Source: a virus. Taken from it: a stretch of DNA of 64,000 bases. Both the position numbers and the translations under genes were made by a program. The stretch's first letter is position 1. Each line of letters starts with the position of its first letter. The notes beneath the pieces are model-generated. The model searched no databases. It was not told the DNA's origin and worked only from the letters and a program-made list of their open reading frames with translations. Location: positions 1-64,000 of the IMG/VR virus record IMGVR_UViG_3300032217_000462, one strand, 5' to 3'. Positions 28,954 to 60,850 of this stretch are shown one piece after another.

Positions 28954-31900
28954 TTACACACCCATTGCTACGCTCATTGCAATAGAGAAATTACGCACAC
29001 TGGTTAAACCAAGTGATCCAACACTAGATAGTATTGTAATAGTATCTCCAGCAGTTGCTGCCTGAGTTAATGTAACTGTAGTACCATTTACAGCAGTATA
29101 ATTACTACTCTTTTGTAAACTACCATTAACATATACTATTACCGATCCTGTACTATAGCCATTGGATACAGTAAATACTGTTTGACCTGCTGTTGCTGTA
29201 AACTCTTCCGAGGTTGACATTGGTCCTGTTGGACCTATGGTACCTTGCGGCCCTGTGGGTCCTGTGGGTCCGGTTATACCGTCACCCTTCATTTCACGAA
29301 CTACTAGTTCTTGTCCTACTCCAGGGGCTATTACAAAAGTTAGTGTTGTTCCACTTACTGAGTAATCAAGTACTGGTTGTAATAAAGCACCGTTAGCTAC
29401 TACTAAAATATTATGTGTGCCATAACCACTGTTAATAGTAAATGCTGTTGTAGTGCCGTCGCCAGTAAACGTTTGCGTTTCAATTGTAAACGGATAACCT
29501 ATTGCACCTGATGGTCCTGTTGGTCCTTGAGCACCTGTGGGTCCATTTGCAGGGCCTGTTGGTCCTACAGCACCTGTTGTTCCAGTGGGTCCTGTGGGGC
29601 CGATTGCACCGTTTGTACCTGCAGTACCTTGTGCACCTGTTGGACCTGTTGGACCACCAGCTGGTCCCGTTGGTCCTTGCGGTCCTGTGGGTCCGTCACC
29701 TTTCATCTCACGAACAACAAGTTCAACTTGATCTTCAGGAGCTGTTACAAAAGTTAGTGTAGTTCCGCTAACAGAATAATCTGCAACAGGTGATAAAATA
29801 ACACCGTTGGCTACAACAATTACGCTATCAGTAGTATAACCACTATTAATAGTAAATGCAGTAGTAGTTCCGTTACCAGTAAAATTTTGTGTTTCTACAA
29901 TAAAGGGTGAACCAATTCCACTAGCACCTGTTGGGCCTGTAGGTCCAGTGGCTCCATTTGAACCTATAGTACCATTAGTACCTTGTGGGCCTGTTGGGCC
30001 TGCTACAGTTGATGCAGCACCTGTAGGACCAGTAACACCTTGAATACCTTGTGATCCTGTAGGACCTGTAATACCTTGAATACCTTGAGATCCTTGAGAT
30101 CCTTGAGATCCTGTAGGACCTGTAATACCTTGCGGACCTATAGGACCTGCTACAGTAGATGCAGCACCTGTAGGACCTGTAGCACCTGTAATACCTTGAA
30201 TACCCTGAGAACCTGTAGGGCCTGTAGCACCTGTAGGGCCTGCTACTGTAGATGCAGCACCTTGAGAACCTGTTGGTCCAGTACTACCCGTTGGGCCTTG
30301 AATACCTTGCGCACCGCTAAGATCACTGGTATAAGTATAACTTGTTCCATTCCAAATATATAATCTAGAATTTTCTGCATTTTCAACATTGCCAGTATCA
30401 ATAATTGCAAACTGTCCTGCTGTAATACCTGTAGGTGAAGTATCAGCTGTTAAAGCCGCAACACTCAAATAAGTTTTAGCAATTGTAAAACCAAGACCAT
30501 TAGCACCTGTTGGACCTGTTGGACCGGTATTACCTTGAGTACCTGCGTTGCCTTGAGAGCCTGTAGGTCCAGTAACACCTTGAATACCTTGTGTACCTTG
30601 AATACCCTGAGAACCTGTAGGGCCTGTAGCACCTGTAGGGCCTGTAATGCCTTGAATACCTTGAGATCCTGTAGGACCTGTAGCTCCATCTACTCCTATT
30701 GTACCTGCAGCACCTATAGGTCCTTGAATACCTTGTGATCCTGTAGGTCCTTGAATACCTTGTGATCCTGTAGGTCCTTGAATACCTTGAGCACCTGTTG
30801 GTCCCGCCACAGTAGAAGCAGCACCTGTGGGGCCTTGAATACCTTGAGAACCTGTAGCTCCTGTAGGACCTTGTGATCCTGTAGGACCATCTCCAAGTAA
30901 TTCTCTAACAACAATTTCATCACCGCTATCTGGAGCAATAATAAAAGTTAAAGAACTTCCGCTAACAGTATAATCGGTAGTTGGTTTTAATAATACGCCG
31001 TTTAAAGCTACTAGTAAACTATCAACAGTATATCCACTATCAATAGCAAATGTTGTTGTGGTTCCGTTGCCAGTAAAGTTTTGTGTTGTTACAATAAAAG
31101 GTGAGCCAATTCCAGAAGGACCTGTAGGTCCAACTACTCCTTGAACACCTTGAATACCTTGAGAACCTGTTGGCCCTGGTACTGTAGATGCTGCCCCTTG
31201 AGCACCAGTAGGACCTGTAACGCCTTGAATACCTTGTGATCCTGTAGGACCAGTAGGACCTGTAACACCTTGAATACCTTGTGATCCTGTAGGACCAGTA
31301 ACACCTTGAATACCTTGTGATCCTGTAGGACCTGTAACGCCTTGAATACCTTGTGATCCTGTAGGACCAGTAACACCTTGAATACCTTGTATACCTTGAG
31401 ATCCCGTAGGACCTGTAGCACCTTGTAAGCCTTGTGTTCCTTGTGGACCTGTAGGCCCTACTATTTGCCCTACGTCTAAATATAAACTGCCAGTCCAGGT
31501 ATATAAATTACCATCAGCTGTAACAATATATGCGTCACCAATACTAGGAGTAGGTGTACCTGGTAATTGTGCTATTGTGGCTACTTCACCTTTAATATTA
31601 ACTGATGTACCAGGATTACCTTGAGGCCCTGTAGGACCTGTAATACCTTGAGCTCCTGTAGGACCTGCTATTGTTGAAGCAGCGCCTGTTGGGCCTGTAG
31701 GACCTGTAACACCTTGAATACCTTGTGATCCTGTAGGACCTGTAACACCTTGAATACCTTGTGAGCCTTGTGAGCCTTGAGCACCTGTAGGACCTGTAGG
31801 ACCTGTAACACCTTGAATACCTTGTGTTCCCTGAGCTCCTGTAGGACCTGTAATACCTTGAGATCCTGTAGGACCTGTAGCACCTTGGATACCTTGAATA

Positions 31901-34900
31901 CCTTGGATACCTTGAATACCTTGGATACCTTGAGCTCCTGTTGGGCCCATAATACCTTGATCACCTGTTGGGCCTGTAGGACCTGTAACGCCTTGAATAC
32001 CTTGTGATCCTGTAGGACCAGTAACACCTTGAATACCTTGTGAGCCTGTTGGTCCATCATTACCCTGCATACCCGTAGGACCTTGTAGCCCTGTAGCACC
32101 TGTAGGACCTGTAGGTCCTGTAACACCTTGAGCACCTGTTGATCCTGTAGAACCTTGAATACCTTGTGATCCTGTAGGTCCTTGAATACCTTGTGACCCT
32201 GTAGGTCCTTGAATACCTTGTGATCCTGTAGGTCCTTGAATACCTTGAATACCTTGAATACCTTGATCACCTGTTGGTCCTGTAGAACCTTGAGCACCTG
32301 TTGGTCCTGCTGATCCTGTGGGTCCAGCTACAGTAGATGCAGCACCTGTTGGTCCTGTGACACCTTGTATACCTTGTGAACCTGTAGGGCCTTGAATACC
32401 TTGAATACCTTGCGAGCCTGTATCGCCAGTATTACCTTGTGCTCCTGTTGGACCTGTTGATCCTGTTGGGCCCGCATTACCTTGTACACCCTGTTGTCCT
32501 GTTGGACCTTGAGCACCTGTTGGGCCTGCAACAGTGGATTGTGCTCCTGTAGGACCTGTAACTCCAGTGGATCCTGTTGATCCTGTAGGTCCTTGAATAC
32601 CCTGTGATCCTGTGGGTCCTTGAATACCTTGAGAGCCTGTAGGCCCTTGTAATCCAGTAGCTCCACTTAAATCAGTTGTATAGTTATAAACACTACCATT
32701 CCATAAATATAGTCTAGCATTTTCAGGATCGCTTACATTTCCTGTATCAATTAGTGCAAATTGACCTGCTATAATATTTGTTGGAGAAGTATCTGCTATT
32801 AATTGAGCTACACTTGTATATGTTTTAGCAATAACAAATCCAAGGCCTGTTGCACCTGTTGGGCCTGTAACACCTTGAACACCTGTTGGGCCTGTGGGAC
32901 CTGCATTACCTTGCGGACCTGTAACACCTTGTGGACCAGTATCGCCCATTGGACCTTGTGGACCTTGTGGACCTTGCATTCCGTCTGCGCCAGCAGGACC
33001 TGTTGGACCTGTAGCACCTTGTGAACCTGTGGGTCCAGGAACGGTTGAGTCTGCTCCTGTTGGACCAAAATCTCCTTGTGGACCTGTTGGGCCAGTTGGA
33101 CCAGTTGCTCCATATCCAATACTTTGACCAGCAACAACCAAGAATCCATTCTCTGTAGAAAGAGGTGTTCCACCCAGATCAATTGTATTAGCAGCAAAAT
33201 AACCTGTTTTCCAACGCTTTGTAGGAGAACCGATATTAAAAGTTTGATCTACTGATGGTAGTAAGTTGCTGTTTATGTTTGTAAGATCAACTGCTGGGCC
33301 TGTTGGGCCAGTTGCTCCAGTTCCTACTAAATGTCCTTTTAGTTCTTTAATTACAACATTTAGTCCATTTGGTGGTGCAGTTACAAATATTACTTGAGTT
33401 CCAGATACAGTATAATCGGTAGTAACTTCTTGTAATAAGCCACCTACTGTAACTAATATACTTTCTGCTGTAAGCCCACTACCTATAGTGAAGGCCGAAG
33501 TACTACCGTCACAAGTATACGTACGAGTATATGCATTAAATGCTGTACCTCCAGGATTACCATTAATCCACTGAGTACCATTCCACAATAGTGCCTGTCC
33601 GTTTGCAGGACCTGATATAACCACATTAGATAAATCTTCTAAAACTGTAGTTTTATTAACCCATTTTTGAGTTGCGCTATCGTAAGCTAATACTTGCTTA
33701 TTAACAGCACTAGTGATTGTTATATCACTTAATCCTGTTAAAGTACTAATTGTAGATTTATTAACCCATTTTTGGGTTGCAGTATCGTAGACAAGTGCTT
33801 GATTATTAGTAGGGCTAGTAATAGTTACATCACTTAAACCTGTAATAGCACTAACAGGTGTTTTATTAACCCACTTACTAGCAACTGAGTCCCAAGATAA
33901 AACTTGGTTATTAGCAACACTGGTAATAGTTACATTACCTAAACTATCTATACTAGTAGTCTTATTAATCCATTTAGAAGCAGTAGTATCCCATACAAGA
34001 GCTTGGTTGTTAGTAACACTAGTAATAGTTACATTGCCTAAGCTATCTATGCTAGTAGTTCTATTAACCCATTTTTGAGTAGCATTGTCCCATACTAGTG
34101 CTTGTTTATCCGCAATGTTTGTTACATTTACGTTATTTAAATCATACAAACTACTAACTGGTGATTTATTTACCCATTTACTAGTTGCTGTATCCCACGA
34201 TAATGTTTGATTGTTAGTTGGGCTAGTAACTGTAACATTACTTAAATCATATAAACTACTAACAACAGATTTATTAATCCATTTTTGCGTAGCAGTATCC
34301 CATGATAATGCTTGGTTATTAGTAACACTAGTAATAGTTACATTGCCTAAATCATTAACACTAGTAGTTTTATTAATCCATTTTGAAGTTGCTGTATCGT
34401 AAGTTAATACTTGTTTATCAATAGTACTGGTTAAAGTTACGTCACTTAATCCTGTTAAAGTACTAACTGTAGATCTATTAACCCATTTCTGAGTTGCAGT
34501 ATCATATACAAGTGCTTGATTATTTGTAGGACTAGTTAATGTTACATTGGTTAAATCGCTAAGAGAACTTGTAAAAGTTCTATTAACCCATTTTTGAGTT
34601 GCAGAGTCATAAGATAATAATTGATTATTTGCAGGACTTACTAAATTTACATCTGTTAAACCAGTAATAGTAGTTGCAACAGTTCTATTAACCCATTTAC
34701 TAGCCGCGGAATCCCATGATAAAACTTGATTATTAGCAACACTGGTAATTGTTACATTACCTAAATCATTCACAGTAGTAGTTTTATTAACCCATTTCTG
34801 TGCTGTCGAATCCCAGGTTAGTTGTTGATTATTGGCGACACTAGTAATAGTTACATTACTTAAATCATCGACTTTAGTATCCGCTAAATTTTTAAAATAC

Positions 34901-35034
34901 TTTACTTGTCCACTGGATGCTTTAAAATATAGTCTTCCATCAGCTGTATTAATGGCTAACTCTCCGGGCTGAAGATTACCGGCCAGTGGGACTCCCCCAG
35001 TTGTCGATGAATTTTTAATCTTAATTATTGCCAT
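28954..35034 (-). CDS. Collagen-like long tail fiber
   Basis: A 2026-residue fiber. Residues ~55-490 contain 13 tandem repeats of about 33 residues (core [13 protein letters not shown], then [11 protein letters not shown]). The rest is Gly-X-Y collagen-like sequence dominated by GPTG and GIQG units, expected to form a trimeric triple helix. The collagen is interrupted by globular modules: five copies of a ~60-residue module (core [18 protein letters not shown]) and two of another ([16 protein letters not shown]), plus a related third ([15 protein letters not shown]). The C-terminal end is the fifth copy of the first module. The SD (AGGG, 35041-35044 on this strand) can be sequestered in a hairpin. 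Confidence 0.85.
29220..33325 (-). repeat. Collagen-like Gly-X-Y repeat DNA within the long fiber
   Basis: Tandem and dispersed 9- to 30-base repeats encode [10 protein letters not shown]-type units; on the + strand they appear as recurring CCTTGAATACCTTG and GATCCTGTAGGACC blocks. Globular modules interrupt the array near 29285-29490, 29700-29905, 30315-30500, 30890-31105, 31465-31610 and 32655-32840. High nucleotide identity between copies makes this a likely hotspot for length change by recombination and a probable site of assembly collapse. Confidence 0.9.
33560..34875 (-). repeat. 13 tandem ~100-base repeats in the long fiber N-terminal shaft
   Basis: Encodes 13 copies of a ~33-residue unit with conserved pattern L-x-x-V-x-I-T-S-x(3)-N-Q-x-L-x-(W/Y)-D-(S/T)-A-x-x-K-W-(V/I)-N-(K/R). 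The last copy is degenerate and leads into the collagen region. Copies are similar but not identical. One related unit (LKGLSDVDTS...DKW) is also found in the small protein at 37058. Confidence 0.85.
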
Positions 35035-43843: not shown

Positions 43844-46800
43844 TTAAGTAATAGTTTTGACAACTATTGTTCCAAGAGTACTAGCATCACTATAGTTATT
43901 AGTTCTATCTACAGTTCTACATGCTACTCTATATGTAACGCCTGCTTCTGAAATTCTTGGTGCAGGTTGGTCTCGTAAATCAAATCTAGCTTCTTCTGTA
44001 CTACGAATAATTTTAATATTATTTGTAGTAGTATCTAACTCCCAGAAATCTGAAGAGCCTGTATCTTTATATAATCTATATTCGTAAGTTAAAAAATCAG
44101 AGGCTTGTGTAATAACTGCAGGTTTAGCTACAATAAATGTATGGTCCAGATCCATAGTTAATGTTGGTGCTACTGCTCCACTATTATTTTTACCATCATT
44201 TAAGAAAGTAAATGTATCAGACCAAGGACCAGTAATTTTACCTGTTGAATCTAAGTATCTTGCTCTAAGTTTATATACTACATCTGAGACTAAGCCAGTA
44301 AACGTAAATCCACTAGTTTCTTTATTTGTAATGTATATTTCATTAGGACTAGTATCATTAAATAATGTATCGCTTTTAACAATATCAAACTGTACTTTTG
44401 CTGCTACTGCAGGTAAGTTTGGTGGATTTGAAAAAGAAGCAATAGCAATATTTTGATAGTTACCCACAGAAATTTGCTCAGCTAAAGGGCTGGTACTATT
44501 AACATCATTTATGATTGGTGATAGTGTAATAGAATTTTTAATTAAGTCCGTATTAACACTAGCAATATTAGCATTAAATACTAATAAACCGCTTAAATCT
44601 GCTGTGTATATTTCAGGTGAATAGTCAACTAAAGTTAATTTTGCACTATAGTTTGTACTAGGCTCTACTGCTATAACAACACATTCTTGCATTGTTTTGT
44701 TTATTTCACCTAACATAAACAAATTATCTACTTCAATATTGTCGCTACCAGTAATTGTAGTTGTCAATGTAATACTATCGGTATATCCAGTAGTTGTTAC
44801 TGCAACAAGAGTTTTAGTAACACTACCTGTACCAGAAGTACTTAAATTATTAGTTCTAATTAGAATAGTATAGGTTTTACCAGTTTCTAAATATGTGGCT
44901 TCTGTAAGTGTAAGAGTATTTCCATTTATGGATTTTATTCTTCCAGTTCCAGTTCCCCATCGTGGTACATCGTGAGTAATTCGTACTAAGTCTCCGCGAG
45001 AACATACTAGTTGTTCAAAATCTACATTTAGACTATAAGTTTCAGGACGTAATTTAATTTGCGCAAAATGCCACCTAGCTAATCTTATGGCTTGGTCAGC
45101 ATTTGTTACTCCGGGTAGAGATAGCTGTTCAAATAATTCTGCTGCTTTTTTACCACTACCAGCTGTTGCAGCATAACCATAGTTATATATAATTAATTCA
45201 TTAGCTTGATAAGCTAATGATTCATCAGGTATAGTAACTCTAAATGCATGAGGCAATATAGGTAAATTTTTTGTAGATTCAAATCCCCAACTATTGTGTG
45301 GAGTAAAATGTTGTGTGGTATAGGCCCTTGGTTGGTCTATTACAACTCCCCACTTTCCGTCTACATAAGTAGGGCTAGCAAGACCTGCTGCACAAATATC
45401 TCGCAATGTATCCATTACGCTTTGTGTATTAGTTAATATACTATTGTATGTATATTTTGGGCAATAAACTGCAGTACCTGTTCCAACTCCAACTCCCGTA
45501 GCATAAAACCCTTCTCCAATGTTATTGGATCCGGCGCCAATACTTGTCCAGTTAGTAGTTCCAGGTGTTTTAATAGTATAATACTTACCTACTACAAAAT
45601 TACCAGCAGTAACTGTTGTTGGGATAGGATTACAGAAATTATGCCACTCAGTTAAACTTGTTAAATCAAGTTGCGATATTTTAGTTACTCTAAAAGCATT
45701 AGCTGGATGAGTTAATACATATATAAATAAACTTGCTGGATTATTAGTAGGACGTTTTGGCCCTGTCCAAGAACTTGTGGTTCTATCATAATCCCAAGTA
45801 ATTGTCTGTACTAAAGCATTTACTCCGTCTACCGTACCGTTTACTTTGTTAGTACTTTGTATTCTTACCGCCGTTTTAGCTAAATAACACCCAGGAGGAT
45901 TAACCATAGGGCTAGCTTTACTATCATAACTAGTTACATTACTTAATACGGCTTTATGATACTTGTGATAATCTGTTTCATCTTCTACTTCATCACTGTT
46001 TAAGCGTTTAACACGTATTTGATACCTACCACGAGGTAAATTTTCTAAAGAATGTACGTAGTTAAAAGCATCTTTGCGAGTTTCAAAGAAACCCGAAGTA
46101 CCAAAAGTAAGAATAGTATTTGCGGCTGGACGAATATTTAAACCACTGTTTGCAGTATATCCAATAGCAACGCCTATAGCAGCTAATCCTCCGCCTGTAT
46201 TTCGGCCTACAATAACTATTGTATGGGTACCTTTGGTAAGTTTGATAGAGCTTTGTACGTAGTTGTTATACCCACCTTTGGGCATAGTTGCAACTTTAGT
46301 ACCGTCAATGTATACTTCGCCTTCATCATCAGCAGCTGCTTGAACTGTGTAATATCCAGTATAGGGAAAGTTTACATTTGATTCAGTGTGTGTCCATTCA
46401 GTAAGACTACTGTTACTAGACCAAACTGATGTATTCTTCAATAGATTGCACCAGCCTTTCCAGGCTCCTGCTGTAACTACGATTGAACCTAGGGCAGCTA
46501 TCTGTCTAGTTGTCCAGATAGTTTCGGCTGTTCCTGCTGCTACACTTGTGGCTGTTTCAGAGTATAACTTACCAGCTTTAATACTAATTTTCTTAGTGGC
46601 TGAGTCACTCCAATTACCTTCATCAAACGTTTGAGTTACAGATGTAACTGTTTGAGTTAACCCAGTAAGTCCAGCATATCCACTGATAGCACTACTATCA
46701 ACATTCACTGTACCGTTACTACTTTGATATACAGTATATAATTTTAAATAACCAGAAGGAATTGTTGGTATATAGTTCCAAGATTTATCTATGTCTAGTA

Positions 46801-48433
46801 AATAGCTATAACTAGTGCTATTATACTTATCTTGTAACCATACGCTAGCGTTAGCTCCTATGTTATCTGTAACTGCTCCATCAAATCGTGCAATACCCCC
46901 ATTAGGGCTTAAGCAAAATATACTATAACGGTATAGATTAACTCCGTATTCGGAATCTGGGTCTTTTGGAGGCGTTAATATAGCCGTATAAGCTTCAGCA
47001 TCTAAAGTACTTGCGTCTGCATTGCCGTTTTTGTATATGCCCAAAGATGTACTAGTGTTTGTTGTATCCCATGGCAATGTACTGTACAGACGAGTTTGTA
47101 ACTCTAACTGGCAAGTAGTTGCAGCTGCTTTACCGTCTTTGGTATTAATTTTACGCATACCTTCTGGAAAGGTAAACGCAATATCTATGGCATCAGCATC
47201 TTGAACAAGCGTTACTTCTGTCCAGGCATTGCCATCAGTAATATTGTTTACTAGCTCAACATTCTTAAACTGTTGTTCAACATCTCGACCGTATAGGTTA
47301 TCAAAAGCAGCAGTAGACTCACCTTGAATTCCTTGTAATGTAACGGGGCGAGGAACTGTAGAAGGTAATCCATCATAATATGAATCAATTGGGTTTCCGC
47401 CAATACAAATATCGCTAATATCAAGAGGACCAAATCCCCACACAATAGCAGTATTTAAAATACTTGTATCCGTTAAAGATTCTACATATGGTGTTGCTCC
47501 AAGCATACCTGTAAAACGCACTTTACCTAATACGACTGGAATAGCTCCAAATTTACTAGCTTGATTACTTGAACCTGTAAATAAATTTAATGCTGCAGCG
47601 CTACCGGAGTCAGTAGTACTTGGTGGACGAATGGGAGCAATAACATTTATCAATGCCATACCTGCCATATTAATAGCCATAGTACCAACAGCTGTTTGTA
47701 CAGCTGCAGTTGATCCTGGTAATAGGTACGATCCAACATCAGCTCCAAAATAAGCTGCAGCTACAACTACGGCAAGCGTTAAAATTAAACGCTTTGTTGA
47801 TCCACCTTCGGCAATGCTTTTATATGATACTTGCTGATTTTTGCGTAGTACAGTAGTATCCCAATCTTTTTGTGGAACTACTATACCATCAATCATAACC
47901 ACAATTTTATCAGCAAGTACTTTACTTACTTGATATTTGTGGTGTACAAAATCAACAAAATTCTGAACTGTAGTACCTTCTACAGTCCAATCTAAATTAG
48001 TACTCATTCTTAAGGGATGAGGTGCCCCTACAACCGCTACTTGAGCTTGTGTTGTATATTTATAAAAACCTACAAAACGGTTTTTCCATTTTAAATTATT
48101 TAATGATTCAACTACTGAATCCATGCCTTCGCGGCAGTGTAAAAACTTATTATCGCCTACATATATGCCCACGTGCGTAGGTTCGCCCATAATATTGAAC
48201 AGACACAAATCTCCAATATTTGGTGCGTCTAACTGTTTCCAGTTATCCATATGTGTGTTAATAGCCGAAACGATGGCAGGATCTTGCCCGCCATCGTATT
48301 CATCAGTATAGCTTGGCAGATCAATATTAAATTGATCTTTATAGTATAGTCGCGCTAATCCCCAGCAGTCTACACCAGTTTCAGTTCTGCCATTTTCAAG
48401 GTAAGGTAATCCGATATATTTATCATAATTCAT
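43844..48433 (-). CDS. Tail-tip fusion: NlpC/P60 (K) + I-like + host-specificity J-like protein
   Basis: A 1529-residue protein that joins three functions separate in lambda. Residues 1-130 are an NlpC/P60 peptidase with a Cys-His-His triad at C23 (DCWG), H87 (THVGIYV) and H99 (FLHC). Residues ~135-290 resemble tail assembly protein I, with an Ala/Val-rich hydrophobic region near 215-265. The remainder resembles the J-type tail-tip protein: PVVLGKVRFTGMLGATPYVE, WGFGPLDISDICIGG, then DTLRDICAAGLASPTYVDGK. It probably cuts peptidoglycan during entry and forms the hub carrying the central fiber. It overlaps the L-like gene by one base. Confidence 0.85.
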   Translation of the reverse strand: MNYDKYIGLPYLENGRTETGVDCWGLARLYYKDQFNIDLPSYTDEYDGGQDPAIVSAINTHMDNWKQLDAPNIGDLCLFNIMGEPTHVGIYVGDNKFLHCREGMDSVVESLNNLKWKNRFVGFYKYTTQAQVAVVGAPHPLRMSTNLDWTVEGTTVQNFVDFVHHKYQVSKVLADKIVVMIDGIVVPQKDWDTTVLRKNQQVSYKSIAEGGSTKRLILTLAVVVAAAYFGADVGSYLLPGSTAAVQTAVGTMAINMAGMALINVIAPIRPPSTTDSGSAAALNLFTGSSNQASKFGAIPVVLGKVRFTGMLGATPYVESLTDTSILNTAIVWGFGPLDISDICIGGNPIDSYYDGLPSTVPRPVTLQGIQGESTAAFDNLYGRDVEQQFKNVELVNNITDGNAWTEVTLVQDADAIDIAFTFPEGMRKINTKDGKAAATTCQLELQTRLYSTLPWDTTNTSTSLGIYKNGNADASTLDAEAYTAILTPPKDPDSEYGVNLYRYSIFCLSPNGGIARFDGAVTDNIGANASVWLQDKYNSTSYSYLLDIDKSWNYIPTIPSGYLKLYTVYQSSNGTVNVDSSAISGYAGLTGLTQTVTSVTQTFDEGNWSDSATKKISIKAGKLYSETATSVAAGTAETIWTTRQIAALGSIVVTAGAWKGWCNLLKNTSVWSSNSSLTEWTHTESNVNFPYTGYYTVQAAADDEGEVYIDGTKVATMPKGGYNNYVQSSIKLTKGTHTIVIVGRNTGGGLAAIGVAIGYTANSGLNIRPAANTILTFGTSGFFETRKDAFNYVHSLENLPRGRYQIRVKRLNSDEVEDETDYHKYHKAVLSNVTSYDSKASPMVNPPGCYLAKTAVRIQSTNKVNGTVDGVNALVQTITWDYDRTTSSWTGPKRPTNNPASLFIYVLTHPANAFRVTKISQLDLTSLTEWHNFCNPIPTTVTAGNFVVGKYYTIKTPGTTNWTSIGAGSNNIGEGFYATGVGVGTGTAVYCPKYTYNSILTNTQSVMDTLRDICAAGLASPTYVDGKWGVVIDQPRAYTTQHFTPHNSWGFESTKNLPILPHAFRVTIPDESLAYQANELIIYNYGYAATAGSGKKAAELFEQLSLPGVTNADQAIRLARWHFAQIKLRPETYSLNVDFEQLVCSRGDLVRITHDVPRWGTGTGRIKSINGNTLTLTEATYLETGKTYTILIRTNNLSTSGTGSVTKTLVAVTTTGYTDSITLTTTITGSDNIEVDNLFMLGEINKTMQECVVIAVEPSTNYSAKLTLVDYSPEIYTADLSGLLVFNANIASVNTDLIKNSITLSPIINDVNSTSPLAEQISVGNYQNIAIASFSNPPNLPAVAAKVQFDIVKSDTLFNDTSPNEIYITNKETSGFTFTGLVSDVVYKLRARYLDSTGKITGPWSDTFTFLNDGKNNSGAVAPTLTMDLDHTFIVAKPAVITQASDFLTYEYRLYKDTGSSDFWELDTTTNNIKIIRSTEEARFDLRDQPAPRISEAGVTYRVACRTVDRTNNYSDASTLGTIVVKTIT

Positions 48434-49336: not shown

Positions 49337-52300
49337 TTATCTCCTTGCAACTGTTGGTCTATTGCCGTAGTTGCTTGCTAGGGATTGTTGTACGGAACTC
49401 CCAGGTCTTGAAAGCTCACTAGCAACCATGTCTCCCACGATTACTTCAATTCTACGATTACCACGTGAATCAGTAGTTTCCTTGGTAGTAGCTTTTTCAT
49501 TTCCATAGTTGTTAACAACTACATCTACGTTACCACCATTGCCGCCTGATCTGACTCCAAGATTACCATTACTATCACGCTTTAGGGGCATAATGGCTTC
49601 GGGCCCTGCTTCACCCATTAATCCAGTACCTTTGGCAAACTTAAACATAGTTGGCTCAGTTACGACTGAATTTGTAAACATTCCGCCTTGGGCAAAAGTT
49701 TTAAGCCCTGTATCGTATACTCCGCCTTTTGCTTCGAGACTAAACCCTGGTAACGAGGGTCCTCCGGAATTAACAAGTTTATTAGTTAAAGCGGTTGAGT
49801 TGAAACCAAACGCACTTCCAATAAGATTCATTAAACCAGGTCTAGCAGCGGCATAAGCTTGCATCATTTGCTGTTGCATTTCGTAGCGAATTAAACCCTC
49901 AATCATGCTATCGATTAAACCTTTGAAGTTTAATTTACCAGTTTTAGTAAACTCGATAATAGCATCAGTCATACCTTTAAAAGTATCTTCAAATACTTGT
50001 CCATAAGCTTTTTGGCGCTCAGTATACTGTGCGTCTTGATCTAAAGCTCTTTTCTTGGCTTCTGATATTTGATTAATAGTACCGATCTCAACATCTTTTC
50101 TAGCTGTAATAGCATTCAGCTCATCTTGAGCATCTTTTGCTGCCTGACTTCCGGGGGTTGCATTATTTATTGCTTGTTGCAATCTATTTTTATCTTGAAG
50201 ATATTTAAGATCTATTGCAGCTAATTTCTGTGTTTGTTCAATACGCAGAGCACCCAGATCTAAATCATACTTTCTATTAGCTATTTGTTGGTCATTTAAT
50301 GCAAGATCTTTGATCTCATAATCTAACTGCATTTTAGCTAGTTCTAAACTAGTGTTAGCTGTAAGGTTATTAGCTTCTTGAGTAATTGATAGTATATTTA
50401 AACGTTTAGCTTCTTGATCTGCTATTAGTTTATTTTGGGCTAGTAATAGATTAACACCATTTTGCTCTAACTGGCCAGTTAACCTTAAGTTAGCAACTTT
50501 TTCTTTATTGGTAAGTACTACTTGACCTTGCTTTAATGTCTCTAAGTCTTTTGTTTCTTGAGCGTCTAACTTACCCATACCCTCATACATTGCTATAGCT
50601 TTTTGTACTTTTAATCTATCATTACTAATATCTAGTAATGAAGACTGTAAGTCTTGTTTTGCTAAAGTATCTTGATAGCCTTTTTGTAATATAAGCTGTT
50701 CTTGTGTTAAGAATCCATTTTGTGAAGATAACAATGACAATCTTTGATTATCTAATTCAACATCACTTTTCTTTACTGACATATTAGATTGTTGAATAGC
50801 TTTTTGCTCATCTAAACGTTTAAGTTCAGTGTTCAAACTGTTAAGCAATTTATCTTTATTTAATTTCGCAGCTTCAACATTAACACCGGCAAATTTTTGT
50901 GCTTCAGTTATCATTGCCTGTACTTGTGCATTGAATTCAGGGCGTTGTGCTCCAAATTCTTTCATAGCTTTTACTGCATTATTAATGAATTTACTAGTAT
51001 CTTTTCCGCCTTGTAATCCTTGGAACTCTGTATTAAGTTCTTTCATGGCAGTAAGAGAATTCATCTTACCAGCAAAATCAGATTTTTCCTTAGCGCTAGC
51101 ATTTGGATTTGCTAAAATTTGTTGAGCTAAAGTATTTAATTCAACGGCATTAGTATTTGCATTTTGTGCAGCCATTGCCATAGTACTGGCTCTAATCATA
51201 TCACGCTGTACATTTAATAACTGCTGTTGTAATCCAATGCTTCGAGCATTAGCGCTACCTTCAAGCGCAGCAGTACCTGGTATGATTCCACTAATTGAGC
51301 CTAGTATACCTTTTTTCAAGTCTATGTCAGCTTGTGCAAAACCATTTTTAATACTTTGTTGTACTAAATTTGCACCTTTTTCAAATGCTTGAAAGTTTAA
51401 ATCTGCAAATACTGGATTCTCCATTACTTTTACAATCTGGCTGTTAACTTTAGCTGTTTCTCGCTCAAGTCTAGCAATATTCATACGCTCTATGGCTAAC
51501 TTTGAATTTGCAATAATTATAGCGTTCTCATCGCGGAAAGGGCCCCGCTTATTCTTTTCCGTATCTGCCGATAATTTAAGTTTAGCTTCGTTTTGTACTG
51601 CTTCTGCTAAGTTCTTTTTAAGTTCGCCTTGTTTATTGTTTAACTGTTCTAATACTGGTTGTAATTTTTGTAATTGAACAATGCTGCTGGGATTAAAAAT
51701 ACCTAAGCTTGTAGTATCTTTTAATAGCTCAATCATGTTGGCAATACTATTAGCAGGATCCTTTAATGCTCCTGACATTTTTACACCAACGGTTATTAGG
51801 TCATTACCTAGCTTTGTCATAGGAGACTTATCAACTACTGAGTTAATAAAATCTCTAAAGCTTAACCTAACTTGTTTTAATGCATCATCAAATTCTTTAC
51901 TTCTGCTTGCCGCATTAGCGGCCTCTGTACCAAACTTTTTAAGTGCGTCTTCAATACTTTTTATAGCTTTTACGGCTCCAGGGCCTTTTTCAGCTATAGC
52001 ATATGCCCAGTGTAATTCTCCACTACCTGGTGCTGTACCAAGTGCTTTATTTACTACATCTTTTGCGCTATTTCTATCTTCACGATTTGTCATTGAAGCA
52101 ACTTGCTTACTGATATTAGCAGCAGCAGCTTGTCCAAACTTAGTTTCATTGTCGTAACCAAGTCCTTTAGAAAAAGCATTAATAAACTTATCCCAAGCAC
52201 TAGATTCGGTTACTTTTACTAACTTTTCATAAGTCTCACGCAATCCAGTAAGTGCATCGTTAAGTCCTAGCACTGCATTTGCTTGTGCAGTAAGATTGTC

Positions 52301-54121
52301 TGAACCAAATATTTTTGAAGCATCTTTCTTTTTAATAGCTTCTAAAGTATCATCATAAGTTTTTAGTGCAGTGGTATTAGTATCAATAGCAGCATTAAAC
52401 TTGTCAAGTTGTTCTTTATTTTTACTAATCCACGTATCTAATAACTTAAATGCACCTACAATAGCTAGGGCTATCATTATATAGGTTTGTGTAGCTGTTA
52501 CAAAACCAATAGCGGCGGTAGTAGCTATTGTAATTGCGCCAGTAAGTCTAGTCCATTGGGCACGAATAGGCCCAAGATCAGATTTGTTAATATCTTTGTT
52601 TAGTTGACTAAATGCTGCTAATGGTCCGATTGTTTCTGTGTTTACTCCAGCATTACTTACTAAAGTTTTTTGCGTAGCAATATCTTGAGCACGTTTAGCC
52701 ATTATTTGAGATCTGCCCAGAGCCGTCCAAATAGTTCCTTGACTGTGTAAAACTTTATTAGTTTCTTCAACTGCTTTTGTATATGCTTTTTCAGCTAAAG
52801 CGCTAGCTTGAATTTTTGCAATGGCGTTCTCATATCGTTGAGCTACATCCATCTTGCCCATGTTTTTATATTGATCTTGCAGCTTTTTAAGATGGTCAAG
52901 TTCTGCTTGTGTAACTTTGTCAGCATCTTTAAGCATAGTCTTGTATGCCTGTGAGTTTTTAGCAAAACCACTATCTCGCACAGCTGCTAAATCGCCGGCC
53001 GCTGCAATCTTAGCTTGTTTTGCTGCCTCTGCGGCTTTATCTAGTTCACTTTCTTTCTTAGACTTACTGGCCTCATAGGCATCTTTTGCCATCTGTGCAC
53101 GTTGTAAAGAACCTGTTTGTGCTTGTTCTGCACCTTGCTTTAAAGCCTCTTTATACTGTCCAATAGCGGGGAGTGCTTGTTTAACAATAGTAGCACCTAA
53201 ATATGCAATTGCCGCAGTAAGAGCCGTAGGGCTACTAGCTAATCCAGAAATTAATGGTACTAAAAGTTTATTTACTTTTTCTAAACCATTCTGAGCTAAG
53301 TCTTTTAAACTTGCAGTTAACTTATCGTACGGATTAGCTTGTAAACTAATTGCTCCAAATTTATCTGAGCCTTCTTTTAAAACTGCGTTAGCAAATGCCT
53401 GGCGTTTTTCAAAATCTGTTAATTGAGCCTCTGTTTTACCTATGCTTCGTGCATAGTCTTCTGTAGCTTTACCAACTTTGGTAAAAATACCAAGTTCGTC
53501 TAACAACTCAGGCTCTAGTTTTGTAATACCGCGAGTTAAACGACTAACTGCGTCCGACATATTAACGCCTAGGGCTTTTGATGCACTATTTGCAACAGTA
53601 CCTAATTGCATCAACTGTTTACCGCTTAAACCAGCCGTAGTACCTTTAACAGTTGCTTCCATAGCTTCACGCATACTAATTGCACCATCAGTAGTTGCGG
53701 CAAAATTCTTTGCAAGAGTTCCTAATGCCAGGCCACTTTGAGCACCTAACTGATTCATACCTTGAATCATATTAGTAGTATCCATTGCATCACTCAATGC
53801 ACGGAAAGCTGCGCTTACTGCAAATAGATTAGCAGCATAAGTGGCATATAAACGTACTAACCCATCAAGCCCACGAGCTTGATTTGCAAAGTCTCGGCCA
53901 GAAGCACCAGTTTGGCCTGTAATACCCCTAGCTACATCGTAGCCTGTGTTACCCATTGCTCCGCCAAATGCGGCTGCTTTACCTTTACTTCCAGGACTAT
54001 CAGACATTTTCTGAATAGAGTCTAGTGTAGCTTTAAGCGCTTTTGCATTCTTATTACTGTTATCGATAGAGTCGCCTACGTCTTTTAACGCAAACTCTAA
54101 AACAATTTTATCATTGGCCAT
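49337..54121 (-). CDS. Tape measure protein
   Basis: A 1594-residue protein, long and mostly helical, that sets tail length and probably enters the cell during DNA injection. Hydrophobic segments lie near 285-310 and 530-565 (ATQTYIMIALAIVGAFKLLD). Long Lys/Glu/Gln/Ala coiled coils cover 330-470 and 900-1400. The C-terminus has the motif GLMGEAGPEAIMPLKRDSNG, typical of lambda H-type tape measures. There is no obvious lytic domain. At the usual 1.5 Å per residue it predicts a tail of roughly 230-240 nm. It has its own promoter (54174) and an AGGAG site. Confidence 0.93.
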   Translation of the reverse strand: MANDKIVLEFALKDVGDSIDNSNKNAKALKATLDSIQKMSDSPGSKGKAAAFGGAMGNTGYDVARGITGQTGASGRDFANQARGLDGLVRLYATYAANLFAVSAAFRALSDAMDTTNMIQGMNQLGAQSGLALGTLAKNFAATTDGAISMREAMEATVKGTTAGLSGKQLMQLGTVANSASKALGVNMSDAVSRLTRGITKLEPELLDELGIFTKVGKATEDYARSIGKTEAQLTDFEKRQAFANAVLKEGSDKFGAISLQANPYDKLTASLKDLAQNGLEKVNKLLVPLISGLASSPTALTAAIAYLGATIVKQALPAIGQYKEALKQGAEQAQTGSLQRAQMAKDAYEASKSKKESELDKAAEAAKQAKIAAAGDLAAVRDSGFAKNSQAYKTMLKDADKVTQAELDHLKKLQDQYKNMGKMDVAQRYENAIAKIQASALAEKAYTKAVEETNKVLHSQGTIWTALGRSQIMAKRAQDIATQKTLVSNAGVNTETIGPLAAFSQLNKDINKSDLGPIRAQWTRLTGAITIATTAAIGFVTATQTYIMIALAIVGAFKLLDTWISKNKEQLDKFNAAIDTNTTALKTYDDTLEAIKKKDASKIFGSDNLTAQANAVLGLNDALTGLRETYEKLVKVTESSAWDKFINAFSKGLGYDNETKFGQAAAANISKQVASMTNREDRNSAKDVVNKALGTAPGSGELHWAYAIAEKGPGAVKAIKSIEDALKKFGTEAANAASRSKEFDDALKQVRLSFRDFINSVVDKSPMTKLGNDLITVGVKMSGALKDPANSIANMIELLKDTTSLGIFNPSSIVQLQKLQPVLEQLNNKQGELKKNLAEAVQNEAKLKLSADTEKNKRGPFRDENAIIIANSKLAIERMNIARLERETAKVNSQIVKVMENPVFADLNFQAFEKGANLVQQSIKNGFAQADIDLKKGILGSISGIIPGTAALEGSANARSIGLQQQLLNVQRDMIRASTMAMAAQNANTNAVELNTLAQQILANPNASAKEKSDFAGKMNSLTAMKELNTEFQGLQGGKDTSKFINNAVKAMKEFGAQRPEFNAQVQAMITEAQKFAGVNVEAAKLNKDKLLNSLNTELKRLDEQKAIQQSNMSVKKSDVELDNQRLSLLSSQNGFLTQEQLILQKGYQDTLAKQDLQSSLLDISNDRLKVQKAIAMYEGMGKLDAQETKDLETLKQGQVVLTNKEKVANLRLTGQLEQNGVNLLLAQNKLIADQEAKRLNILSITQEANNLTANTSLELAKMQLDYEIKDLALNDQQIANRKYDLDLGALRIEQTQKLAAIDLKYLQDKNRLQQAINNATPGSQAAKDAQDELNAITARKDVEIGTINQISEAKKRALDQDAQYTERQKAYGQVFEDTFKGMTDAIIEFTKTGKLNFKGLIDSMIEGLIRYEMQQQMMQAYAAARPGLMNLIGSAFGFNSTALTNKLVNSGGPSLPGFSLEAKGGVYDTGLKTFAQGGMFTNSVVTEPTMFKFAKGTGLMGEAGPEAIMPLKRDSNGNLGVRSGGNGGNVDVVVNNYGNEKATTKETTDSRGNRRIEVIVGDMVASELSRPGSSVQQSLASNYGNRPTVARR

Positions 54122-54173: not shown

Positions 54174-54202
54174 ATTATAACATGCAACCACGCTCTTGTC
54201 AA
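54174..54202 (-). promoter_or_regulatory. Sigma70-type promoter for the tape measure and downstream tail genes
   Basis: Read leftward: -35 TTGACA (54202-54197), a 17-base spacer and -10 TATAAT (54179-54174), with TGT giving an extended -10. The predicted start is near 54167, with a 46-base leader containing an A/T-rich hairpin (54140-54148 with 54151-54159). It lies 20 bases after the U-tract of the terminator that ends the chaperone genes. Confidence 0.88.
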
Positions 54203-54221
54203 ACCAAAAAATTTTTAACGC

Positions 54222-54253
54222 AAAAAAGCCCGCTAATTTTTAGCTAGCGGGCT
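54222..54253 (-). terminator. Intrinsic terminator after the tail chaperone genes
   Basis: A perfect 9-bp GC-rich stem (54245-54253 with 54227-54235) has a 9-base loop and ends in six U on the leftward transcript (54227-54222). The stop codon of the T-like frame (54242-54240) lies in the loop, so translation to the end would disturb the hairpin. This links termination to whether ribosomes reach the T stop. Confidence 0.85.
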
Positions 54254-54626
54254 CTTGCATCTTTTTCTTATTATTGATTTCGTCTGATCTAATATTATCT
54301 ATTATACGTATTAGCATAATAATAAACTTCTGCTCTGACGGATCAACTTCTGTTGCTTCCAAAACATCTTTAATACCTATAAGAGATTTTCCTAAGTAAG
54401 AACCACTCATTGTGTCCCACTCATCTCTTAACATCCTATAAGCATTAAATGCTTGTTGAACTTCAAACGGGAAGTCATCAAACTCAACCGGAATTTCAGA
54501 TTCTATAGGTTCGCTGCCTAATGCTTCACACATTTCAAAATATGCGTCTTTGGTCATTGACACACTCATATTTTGAATGTAATTGACCAACTGCAGATTT
54601 ACTTGCTGGAGTTGGTCGTCGAAAAG
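54240..54626 (-). CDS. T-domain of the tail chaperone G-T fusion, made by -1 frameshift
   Basis: The 128 residues read after the ribosome shifts at 54626-54632. The fusion is about 261 residues, 133 from G and 128 from T. The T frame stays open upstream of the first candidate start (TTG 54590), without a good ribosome binding site, so it is probably not started independently. The visible domain is helical and acidic (DFPFEVQQAFNAYRMLRDEW; VDPSEQKFIIMLIRIIDNI). In lambda, G-T binds the tape measure protein through T and recruits major tail subunits through G. It lies directly before the tape measure gene, as in lambda. Confidence 0.82.
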   Translation of the reverse strand, partial: LFDDQLQQVNLQLVNYIQNMSVSMTKDAYFEMCEALGSEPIESEIPVEFDDFPFEVQQAFNAYRMLRDEWDTMSGSYLGKSLIGIKDVLEATEVDPSEQKFIIMLIRIIDNIRSDEINNKKKMQEPAS

Positions 54627-54632
54627 TTTCCC
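54585..54632 (-). promoter_or_regulatory. Programmed -1 ribosomal frameshift signal
   Basis: On the leftward transcript the slippery heptamer G GGA AAC (54632-54626) is in the G frame after TTG. It fits the X-XXY-YYZ rule. An 8-base spacer (54625-54618) leads to a perfect 8-bp stem, GACCAACT (54617-54610) with AGTTGGTC (54592-54585). The stem can be lengthened by CAG/CTG after one mismatch. The G stop codon (54601-54599) lies in the loop. Lambda uses the related heptamer GGGAAAG at the same genomic position. Confidence 0.88.
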
Positions 54633-55024
54633 AAGTCCATAACCTGTTCACTAATAAAAGCATCAAAGTTACTGGAATTTTTCATTAAGTATAGTGCATT
54701 TTCAGCAGTATATCCTAATTCAGCATCCATATCTTTGCCAGATAACTCTACTGGTGCTAACTGTTCTAAATAGCTCAGCTTTAAGCCTGACCATCCTTTA
54801 ACAGCATTTTCAACATATAGTTGTAAAAATAAATCTTCATTAAATTCTTCAGATGCTTGACGATTTTTAAAACTAGTCTTTGTAGACTTTTTACGAATAT
54901 TTAACAATGTTTCGCGTGATAAAAATGCCAAGTCAACCATAAAACCAGGCATACCAGGATATTCTACCTGTACTGATTTAGAAGGAACTAACAGTGTTTT
55001 TAAAGAGAGAGTAGTTGTAGTCAT
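54599..55024 (-). CDS. Tail assembly chaperone, lambda G-like
   Basis: A 141-residue protein (MTTTTLSLKTLLVPSKSV) located between the major tail protein and the tape measure, the position of lambda G. It is helical in the C-terminal half and acidic, ending NFSTTNSSK. Most ribosomes should end here; a minority shift to -1 near codon 133 and make G-T. The G:G-T ratio normally matters for correct tail assembly. Sequence similarity across this family is low, so the assignment rests on position, size and the frameshift signal. Confidence 0.85.
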   Translation of the reverse strand: MTTTTLSLKTLLVPSKSVQVEYPGMPGFMVDLAFLSRETLLNIRKKSTKTSFKNRQASEEFNEDLFLQLYVENAVKGWSGLKLSYLEQLAPVELSGKDMDAELGYTAENALYLMKNSSNFDAFISEQVMDLGNFSTTNSSK

Positions 55025-55037
55025 TATATAATAAGAT

Positions 55038-55070
55038 TAAAAAGAGAGACTGGAGATCAACCCAGTCTCT
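55038..55070 (-). terminator. Intrinsic terminator after the major tail protein gene
   Basis: A perfect 9-bp stem (55062-55070 with 55045-55053) has an 8-base loop. It is followed on the leftward transcript by CUUUUU. It lies 13 bases past the major tail protein stop. It would favour high expression of the major tail protein with reduced read-through into the chaperone genes. Confidence 0.8.
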
Positions 55071-55083
55071 ATGAAAATGCAAC

Positions 55084-56277
55084 TTATACTGTTGTATTAG
55101 TTGCGTAGTATTTAACTTCTAATTCGTTCTTAGCTTCAAGGTCATATGCACCAGAGGTAGCACCTTGAGCAGTTAAATTAATAGAAGTAGCAATAATTTG
55201 TTCAGAATTAATAGCTGGAATTGTCAACTGAGCTGTTGCAATAGTGAATACAACTTTATTTGTGTTAGCTGCTCCACCAAGTGAAATCTCTGTTGCAAAC
55301 TTATTTTCAGTACTTGAAGAGCTAGCTGCCAACATATCTTTCAACAATGTCGATGTTTCGTTAGTTCCAGTTTTTAAGTAAGCATTTACGCTGCCAGTAA
55401 TAGCACGCGTACCTGTGAAGTAGGTAATTGGCTGATTAACAACACCCAAATTAGCAGGTGTTAAATATGTTAAATTATTGCTAATAGTTAAGTTACCGCC
55501 TGTTAAAGCAAGCGTATAAGACTTAGCACTTAATCCGCCAAAAGCTAAAGAAGCTAATGTCATTGTTGACAGTTTGTTAGCGATATAAGCAGCAGTGGTA
55601 TCTTTTGTTTTTGCAGTACCAGCTAAACCACCGGTCAAAGTAGTAGTACCAGACGCATCAGCCAATGTTACAGCGGTAGCAACTTGACGCATTGTAGTAC
55701 CTTTACCGGCCCAGGCAATAGAAGCAATAGCATCTAACCCAAAGTCAATAGTAGCACTATCAATAGCGCAATTATCGATAACATAAGTTACGTCTTCAAA
55801 ACGAATAATCAATCCAAAAGCTAATAATTGGTGAGCGTTAGAGTTAGTAAATGCTACTGTAGAATAAGGAGTTGTAGGTCCTAAAGTTTTTGTCCAACCG
55901 GCTCCAGCGGAACCAATTGCGGCAGTACCCGATAAAGAGTTCCAAAGAACAGCTTCTTCTGCGTTAATATAATCATCAGAGTCAAGAGCAGGAGCACTTG
56001 TAGCACCTTCTTCAAACTTAGGACGAATATAAGTAGCAAAACTCCAGTCTACTGGCTCTAATGAAGTATTGAAACTACGCTGACCACGAACAGGTGCAGC
56101 ACCTGATTCATTTACAGTAACAGTTTCTTGACCTGTGTTTTGTGAAAAAGAGAATCCGTCTTGAACTTGGAGCTCTTGTGTGTTTGCGGTAGTGAATCCG
56201 GTTGCGGCTACAGCGCCTGTAACTGTCAAATTAGTTGTATAAAAAACTCGACTATTACGAATTAAATTTAATGCCAT
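55084..56277 (-). CDS. Major tail (tube) protein
   Basis: A 397-residue protein that probably forms the tail tube. It is beta-rich, Thr/Ala/Asn-rich and without Cys-rich or enzymatic motifs. The N-terminus (LNLIRNSRVFYTTNLT) and the segment NTGQETVTVNESGAAPVRGQ fit long-form tube proteins of siphoviruses, which often carry an extra Ig-like domain. It is located between the tail terminator and the G/G-T chaperones, the lambda V position. A strong terminator after it and a solo ribosome binding site (AAAGGA) fit high-level expression. Confidence 0.82.
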   Translation of the reverse strand: MALNLIRNSRVFYTTNLTVTGAVAATGFTTANTQELQVQDGFSFSQNTGQETVTVNESGAAPVRGQRSFNTSLEPVDWSFATYIRPKFEEGATSAPALDSDDYINAEEAVLWNSLSGTAAIGSAGAGWTKTLGPTTPYSTVAFTNSNAHQLLAFGLIIRFEDVTYVIDNCAIDSATIDFGLDAIASIAWAGKGTTMRQVATAVTLADASGTTTLTGGLAGTAKTKDTTAAYIANKLSTMTLASLAFGGLSAKSYTLALTGGNLTISNNLTYLTPANLGVVNQPITYFTGTRAITGSVNAYLKTGTNETSTLLKDMLAASSSSTENKFATEISLGGAANTNKVVFTIATAQLTIPAINSEQIIATSINLTAQGATSGAYDLEAKNELEVKYYATNTTV

Positions 56278-58909: not shown

Positions 58910-60850
58910 TTAGGATGCTGTGTACTTGTGTGCTGTAACAGCGTTACCTAAATTAGTAGTAACACGTGTCATACCGGTACGGAGGCTAGCCACCATAACG
59001 CGACGCTGTGTCTCAACCAATTCTTGGGTATCAATGCGGAGACCGCGCTGGTTACCAACGATAAAGTTGCCTGGGTTCAAGCAAACTGCGCCAGCAATAC
59101 CAGTACCTGGTGAGGCGAATTCTGCAGAAACCAATACTGGGCTACCACCGATTTGACCGATTTGACCGGTCAGCAATGTAGCTTGTGTACCAACTTGGTT
59201 CATTGTTTGGAACACTGTGTCTTCGAGCAACTGGTAATAAACATCGGTATTAACGATATAAACTACTTCTTGTGGATCGAGACCCCAGGCACCCAAACCT
59301 TGACGCAATGTGCGCATTTTAGCAACTGTCATACCAGCAGCAACGGTGTTACCAGTAGCAGTGGTGTTAGTAGCCCAGTTTGCTAATCCTTTAACAGGAT
59401 CAGAACCCGAACCTGCACCTAACAAGAAAGCCTTGTCAACAGCGCGAGCAACACGACGAATCATACCATCACGGATGATTGGCATCAAAGCCAACAATGC
59501 GTCTTCTTCTTCTTCGTATGCTGTATACTCGTTTGTAGCAAGTTTATAAGCATTCAAAGTGATTTCTTTGAGCGCGTGTGTAGCAGAAGCACCAGCAGAA
59601 GCACCAGCAGCACCAAGCGAACCAGGAACAGCGCCAAACTCAGCGTTAGTAACCCAAGTTGCAGTACCTGCTTCTGGGTTCACTGGGATTGTCATCACGT
59701 TGGTTTGCATAGCAATGTTGCGGAAAATAGGTGCAACAACCAAACGACGACGAACCTCAGACTCAAGATTCAAAGAAACTTCGAGTTCCCATGTAGCTGA
59801 AGGCACGTGAGCACCGTATTTTTGTACTAAATCGCGACCAGTTTTTGTGCCTTCCAATGACTTACCAGCCATTTTAGACAATAAAACTGCCTTTTCTTTG
59901 TCAGCATAAGACATACCGTCTTTGGCTTCTTGGAAAGACATTTTAGATTTTGTGATTGCTTCGATTTCAGCAGCTTTTTCTTTCAAAGAAGCTTCTAAAC
60001 CAGCGATAACTGATTTGCTTGACTCTTCAGCTTTTTCCAAACGCTTCTCAACTTCGGCCAACAAGCGCTCAGCACCTGTGTCACCAGTAGAGATAGAGGC
60101 AACAGCGGCTTTAACGCGTGCATCTAATTCGGCCTCAGCTTTGTCAGCAGCAGCTTTTTCAGCTAATGCTTTTGCCTGTGTATCGGCGATGGCTTTTGCA
60201 GTTTGCTCAGCCGCTTTGCTAGCTGCATCAGCTAACATTTGTTCTAATTGTTTTGGATCCATTTCCATTTCCTTTTTGACTTCGCTGCTTGCTTCCGTTG
60301 AGGATTCTAGCCCTTTAGCTGACTCGCTGTTGGGTGCAAACTGCATTTTGAAAGATTTAAATTCTTCGGCTGTATCAAACGCCTTAGAAAGACTAAATAG
60401 TGTATTTTGATTAGCTGGCACTGATACTACTGAAATTTCATGTAGTTCCAATTCCTTTACCACAAACAGCTCTGCAGCTGAGTTGTACTCCGCATCTACG
60501 ATTCGAAATCCGATACTAAACGCCGTTAAAACGCCGTCTTTTACAAGATTGAACACCTCACTGGCTGCTGAAGAAATTCTGGCTTTAATCCACAATCCTT
60601 TGCCGTCAATTTTATGTTCTACCATCCTACCAACTGGCTCGCTATGGTCATGGTATGCTAAAATTACTGGATTTTTCAAGTAATTCTGAATACCTTTTTC
60701 CCATACGCTTGCAGGAACAACATCGCCCTGTCTATCAATATCCGTAGTACTTGCATACCCTTCAATTGTTATACTGGCTGTTTTTCCGTCGGAGGTAGTA
60801 TTCTTGATAAATGAACTGTTTAAAAACAGTACTTTACTTTTGTCTACCAT
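58910..60850 (-). CDS. Fused prohead protease, scaffold and major capsid protein (HK97 fold)
   Basis: A 646-residue polyprotein. Residues 1-165 form an S78-type prohead protease: H67 or H69 in YHDHSEPVGRM, S112 in AFSIGF, and the closing block ELHEISVVSVPANQNT. Residues 190-330 are an Ala/Lys/Glu-rich coiled coil, equivalent to the delta scaffold. Residues ~340-646 match HK97 capsid proteins (LNLESEVRRRLVVAPIFRNI; later ETQRRVMVASLRTGM). The protease probably releases the capsid domain after shell assembly. AAGGGG precedes the ATG. By eye the codons are richer in G+C than those of the fibers, as expected for abundant protein. Confidence 0.9.
   Translation of the reverse strand: MVDKSKVLFLNSSFIKNTTSDGKTASITIEGYASTTDIDRQGDVVPASVWEKGIQNYLKNPVILAYHDHSEPVGRMVEHKIDGKGLWIKARISSAASEVFNLVKDGVLTAFSIGFRIVDAEYNSAAELFVVKELELHEISVVSVPANQNTLFSLSKAFDTAEEFKSFKMQFAPNSESAKGLESSTEASSEVKKEMEMDPKQLEQMLADAASKAAEQTAKAIADTQAKALAEKAAADKAEAELDARVKAAVASISTGDTGAERLLAEVEKRLEKAEESSKSVIAGLEASLKEKAAEIEAITKSKMSFQEAKDGMSYADKEKAVLLSKMAGKSLEGTKTGRDLVQKYGAHVPSATWELEVSLNLESEVRRRLVVAPIFRNIAMQTNVMTIPVNPEAGTATWVTNAEFGAVPGSLGAAGASAGASATHALKEITLNAYKLATNEYTAYEEEEDALLALMPIIRDGMIRRVARAVDKAFLLGAGSGSDPVKGLANWATNTTATGNTVAAGMTVAKMRTLRQGLGAWGLDPQEVVYIVNTDVYYQLLEDTVFQTMNQVGTQATLLTGQIGQIGGSPVLVSAEFASPGTGIAGAVCLNPGNFIVGNQRGLRIDTQELVETQRRVMVASLRTGMTRVTTNLGNAVTAHKYTAS

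Follow-up and report, generated by a model that had tools for sequence, protein, structure and literature searches.

A probable -1 frameshift joining two T5-type tail assembly chaperones in an uncultivated virus, and a candidate +1 site in its T5-like relatives

Programmed -1 frameshifting is widespread in tail chaperone genes; an RNA structure downstream of the site is common without being obligatory, and the lambda site is known for having little structure. The -1 frameshift that yields lambda G and G-T has been described (Levin 1993; Xu 2004; reviewed in PMC5009743), and the heptamer GGGAAAC has been predicted for the chaperone genes of Caulobacter phage Colossus (PMC3556154), Burkholderia phage KL1 (PMC3483164) and the haloarchaeal virus HCTV-1 (PMC5009743). 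G_GGA_AAC is an efficient slip site for mammalian ribosomes; in the E. coli A_AAA_AAN series, sites ending in AAG shift most readily, ahead of those with AAC in the A site (PMC5009743), and the slip rate at a GGGAAAC site such as the one described here will therefore depend on the host. For T5-like phages, the Sugarland genome paper predicted no frameshift signal in Sugarland, as in T5 (PMC6256483). Influenza A PA-X and plant amalgaviruses use a known +1 site, UUU_CGN (PMC5052127).

The probable slip site and its reading frames

The window, meaning the whole stretch of 64,000 nucleotides analysed here, comprises positions 1-64,000 of the 67,416-base uncultivated virus record IMGVR_UViG_3300032217_000462 from IMG/VR. 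Its tail genes lie on the minus strand in the order tail terminator, tail tube protein, G, T frame, tape measure protein and lambda-like tail-tip genes, so that two overlapping ORFs, the second in the -1 frame, sit between the genes for the tail tube (major tail) protein (55084..56277; PHROG 3575, E 6e-65) and the 1594-aa tape measure protein (49337..54121; PHROG 3779/1716, Pfam PF09718). Read without a frameshift, G (54599..55024) is a tail assembly chaperone of 141 aa, while the T frame (54240..54626) is an extension of 128 aa plus stop that would be read only after the shift.

The 3' end of G reads ...GTT ATG GAC TTG GGA AAC TTT TCG ACG ACC AAC TCC AGC AAG TAA, with the heptamer GGGAAAC at 54632-54626 in the G frame (ttG GGA AAC). 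The first-pass annotation had proposed this heptamer as a slip site, followed after 8 bases by a perfect 8-bp hairpin with the G stop in its loop, and all of this is present on the minus strand: the spacer TTTTCGAC (54618..54625) leads into the 5' arm GACCAACT (54610..54617), a 17-nt loop (54593..54609) holds the TAA (54601-54599), and the 3' arm AGTTGGTC (54585..54592) lies in coding sequence of T only. The region folds with -13.8 kcal/mol (z -4.9 against dinucleotide shuffles). The heptamer was also said to lie 27 bases before the stop; it is indeed near the end of G, but 24 nt lie between, and 27 is reached by counting the stop itself. The open stretch of the -1 frame begins 49 nt ahead of the G stop and runs down to 54240, which bears out the claim of an uninterrupted passage into 128 residues of T, and a -1 shift joins 133 aa of G to these 128 aa in a 261-aa G-T fusion.

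A count over 13 structural ORFs of the window (10,266 codons) gave 55 in-frame X_XXY_YYZ heptamers, or 0.54% per codon, with GGGAAAC at the slip site only; GGGAAACTTTTC is found once in the whole 67-kb record. With a G/T overlap of about 16 codons, the chance of meeting any canonical heptamer there is still about 8%, and it is the conservation of the heptamer in relatives that removes a chance origin. A -1 slip one codon downstream, at A_AAC_TTT, was considered and rejected because a P-site tRNA on AAC would re-pair badly; clades with AAT at this position have a true A_AAU_UUU slip site there.

Several other features of the region were observed. The gap between T and the tape measure gene (54174-54256, minus strand) carries an intrinsic terminator with the T stop codon inside its hairpin (-18.4 kcal/mol) and a perfect 12/12 match to an extended -10 sigma-70-type promoter; in relatives, this gap has promoter-like sites in 117 and terminators in 72 of 124. 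A terminator-like hairpin (55045-55070, minus strand) also separates the tail tube gene from G; it lies about 20 nt upstream of the G start, which is itself without a Shine-Dalgarno sequence. The tail as a whole is a mosaic of T5-type tube and chaperones with lambda-type tape measure and tip. Also on the minus strand, single ORFs encode an NlpC/P60 (lambda K-like) domain together with a J-like tail tip protein (43844-48433, 1529 aa) and a head maturation protease together with the major capsid protein (58910-60850, 646 aa), and a tail fibre-like protein of 2026 aa (28954-35034) has long collagen-like GPTG/GSQGIQ repeats.

Conservation of the heptamer and the stem

An IMG/VR scan with G gave 233 relatives, and the best 80 of the 233 were inspected at the heptamer: all 80 have TTGGGAAAC or CTGGGAAAC, then TTT, and the G stop falls 31 nt past the heptamer start in 79 and 22 nt past it in the remaining one. 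Among close loci that were fetched, 161/161 have GGGAAAC. Further scans together with named phages brought the set to 349 loci with 162 distinct junctions; the best 80 loci per scan were retrieved, and the sample favours close relatives. T lies in the -1 frame at 129 of these junctions and in the +1 frame at 32, and one contig ends too early.

The comparison with related genomes that the first-pass annotation had suggested as a check gives a uniform answer: an in-frame X_XXY_YYZ heptamer is kept in the overlap at 129/129 distinct -1 junctions, counts that kinship makes non-independent, against a background of 0.96% per codon in the bodies of the same G genes. The types are GGGAAAC (115), AAATTTT (10), AAATTTC (3) and GGGAAAG (1, in L328, as in lambda). 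In the GGG-type heptamers the Gly codon is always GGA, vs 24% of Gly codons in these genes. The fused proteins were placed in a maximum-likelihood tree (84 rows, midpoint-rooted, with long branches), in which the AAATTTT pair L206/L236 is nested in the GGGAAAC clade with the GGGAAAC-bearing L230 as sister, so that one slippery heptamer has replaced another; the A_AAU_UUU of this pair sits at the codon next to the GGGAAAC position. A second AAATTTT group (L335-L345) and the AAATTTC group diverge earlier. In several relatives the -1 frame has an upstream stop just 6 nt before the heptamer, which confines the shift to about 36 nt in them.

The stem was examined in 70 distinct sequences with the G stop at +31, using synonymous recoding of the T-only 3' arm as the null. 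All 8 pairs are intact in 49/70, compared with a mean of 1.1 and a maximum of 5/70 in 300 recoding trials, and the mean number of pairs is 7.1 vs 5.3. Pair 6 is A-T in 37, G-C in 19 and G-T in 9 of the 70 sequences, with double changes from A-T to G-C, and sliding the partner by 1-6 columns leaves at most 58% of cells paired, vs 89% unslid. Judged by its pairing, selection acts on the stem in close relatives, although shared ancestry means that the 70 sequences do not represent as many independent events. Stems of other sequence, starting 4-9 nt past the heptamer, are present in other clades (GAGCAACT/AGTTGCTC, TGAGCAGCTTG/CAGGCTGCTTA and AAAGCAAGTA/TACTTGCTTT), and the distant L335-L345 have their own, CGCAAGTA/TACTTGCG, 6 nt past AAATTTT. 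No strong stem after the heptamer was seen in L283, L290, L318, L324, L326 or L328, and the stem is therefore not essential in the family. The well-placed stem that had been claimed for this site is thus a feature of the window and its close relatives but not a family-wide one: as far as the alignments go, what stays constant is the heptamer, to which the stem is an often kept, dispensable and lineage-specific addition. Rfam gave only sub-threshold matches over the frameshift region. A second 8-bp stem-loop (54560-54583, minus strand) directly follows the frameshift stem; it varies in relatives and is possibly due to chance.

The explanation that survives best beside our own accepts the frameshift but not the stem as its stimulator, taking the stem for a by-product of overlapping coding constraints or for some other RNA element. 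Its absence from several -1 relatives would fit, as would the little structure for which lambda is known. We nonetheless consider this unlikely, given that the 3' arm lies in T-only sequence with pairing far above that of synonymous recoding, and that other clades have rebuilt a stem 4-10 nt past the heptamer from different sequences.

Taken together, the conserved heptamer, its replacement by other slippery heptamers, the tight overlap and the conserved stem strongly support the -1 frameshift that the first-pass annotation had proposed for G and G-T. On this comparative sequence evidence we put the probability that a stem-stimulated -1 frameshift at GGGAAAC makes G and a G-T fusion with a chaperone role at roughly 0.93. 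We infer that slippage occurs, at a rate that the stem may raise, and that its products take part in assembly. Most ribosomes on G would end at TAA and release the 141-aa chaperone, while a minority, delayed by the 8-bp stem that begins 8 nt past the heptamer, would slip; the tRNAs in the P and A sites, paired with GGA AAC, would move back one base to GGG AAA, and reading would continue CTT TTC ... to the end of the 261-aa fusion. By analogy with lambda, G may coat the tape measure protein and the T domain may recruit tail tube subunits.

The G and T proteins and the expression of T

G matches PHROG 313 (E 3e-14) and T matches PHROG 3914 (E 2e-12), both tail assembly chaperone families. A tblastn search with G found 901 phage records, mostly T5-like, with a best identity of 36%; T is 36-40% identical to its T5-like homologs, and the homologs are named T5.143 and T5.142 in the Slocum record. 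Searches of Pfam with G and T gave no family match, the locus compared as DNA with phage records had no match, a profile search of solved structures found none, and a fold search of both models against the PDB returned nothing significant. The AlphaFold model of T (pLDDT 91) has as its best fold match the chaperone of T5-like phage Shivani (TM 0.79, E 8e-7), with the chaperone of Acinetobacter phage Loki lower in the list; the G model has a pLDDT of 84.5. The T frame is conserved as protein in relatives, with Gly79-Lys80 invariant. By sequence, then, the pair belongs to the T5-type chaperones as homologs of T5.143/T5.142 and is not recognisable as lambda gpG/gpT. The description of the locus as a lambda-type G/G-T pair holds for the expression logic and the gene position but not for protein family membership, there being no Pfam match and the families being PHROG 313 and 3914.

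T might instead be a separate product, initiated at a start of its own or by ribosomes that reinitiate past the G stop, and no fusion would be made. ATG codons do occur within the first 45 codons of the T frame in 124/124 relatives tested, also near the conserved MTK motif, and many T5-like records annotate T on its own. None of these ATGs is preceded by a Shine-Dalgarno-like sequence, but this weighs little, since only 42/293 G genes have one either; T may lack a translation start of its own. What speaks more clearly against separate translation is that protein conservation in the T frame extends upstream of the ATGs to the heptamer, and that invariant slippery heptamers and their swaps for other slippery ones would be left unexplained. 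We regard it as improbable.

Transcriptional rather than ribosomal slippage could also join the frames, and a change of frame does not by itself distinguish the two; however, the longest homopolymer runs at the site are GGG, AAA and TTTT, and what is conserved is a tandem codon pattern with its spacing to the stem, which makes this very improbable. An assembly indel or a decayed gene imitating two frames, conceivable for viral sequence that was assembled from a metagenome collection, is refuted by relatives that repeat the arrangement in 129 distinct junctions on many contigs.

T5-like relatives and comparison with known systems

The T frame of Demerecviridae lies +1 relative to G. At 31/31 distinct intact T5-like junctions (L082-L093, L254-L282), TTT is followed in the G frame by CGT (29) or CGA (2); AhSzw-1 (L089) was left out, its G ORF not being intact at the matched place. 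This TTT aligns with the Phe codon directly after the window heptamer. In many cases the +1 frame is closed until 8 nt before TTT. In Pectobacterium phage My1, CGT is immediately followed by the G stop, so that the switch is confined there to GAC TCC TTT CGT TAA. Re-pairing of P-site UUU with UUC accounts for every T5-like junction. A -2 shift was rejected since a tRNA on UUU that moved back two bases would not re-pair in My1, KEY, Slocum and phi3. The Shivani record already annotates the chaperone as a two-piece join of 277 residues, which fits the -2 reading; +1 at UUU_CGU gives 276. The window group lacks the Demerecviridae-type +1 switch at UUU_CG(U/A) and has its -1 switch at GGGAAAC. In three Vibrio T5-like phages (L085, L088, L092), an extra ORF of about 250 codons lies between T and the tape measure gene.

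It seems likely to us that the chaperone fusion was kept while the direction of recoding changed, with +1 at UUU_CG(U/A) in T5-like phages and -1 at a slippery heptamer in the window clade. The T5-like UUU_CG(U/A) matches the eukaryotic-virus site UUU_CGN, here with bacterial ribosomes as its readers, and looks like a candidate +1 site, apparently undescribed in Demerecviridae; we found no published +1 site at the T5-like chaperone junction in mostly open-access literature. If true, a +1 site that has the common sense codon CGU in the A site would belong to a type undescribed for bacteria in the literature searched, and a +1 shift would explain the apparent lack of a signal in T5-like phages. 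With the -1 site, a large environmental phage group gains a well-supported chaperone fusion that would escape routine annotation. We suggest that these phages form a natural evolution experiment, in which one fusion is kept via different heptamers, rebuilt stems and an apparent +1 shift in the T5-like sister group, and which allows testing how recoding signals are exchanged without loss of the product.

Within the known systems, the window site is a further example of the well-known chaperone frameshifting, and the T5-like comparison is the more interesting product of this work. Like lambda G/G-T, the site lies between the tail tube and tape measure genes, carries an X_XXY_YYZ heptamer near the end of G, and would yield a short product and a -1 extended fusion; unlike lambda, its heptamer ends in AAC rather than AAG, it has a strong covarying stem, and G and T show no detected sequence homology to gpG/gpT. 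With Colossus, KL1 and HCTV-1 it shares an identical heptamer in the same kind of gene, and with KL1 also a predicted downstream stem-loop; those sites were predicted in single genomes, whereas the window site was tested by family-wide conservation. T5.143/T5.142 and the Shivani genes are homologous to G and T, have the same gene order and switch at the same protein position, but in T5.143/T5.142 T is +1 of G at UUU_CG(U/A), in contrast to -1 at GGGAAAC in the window.
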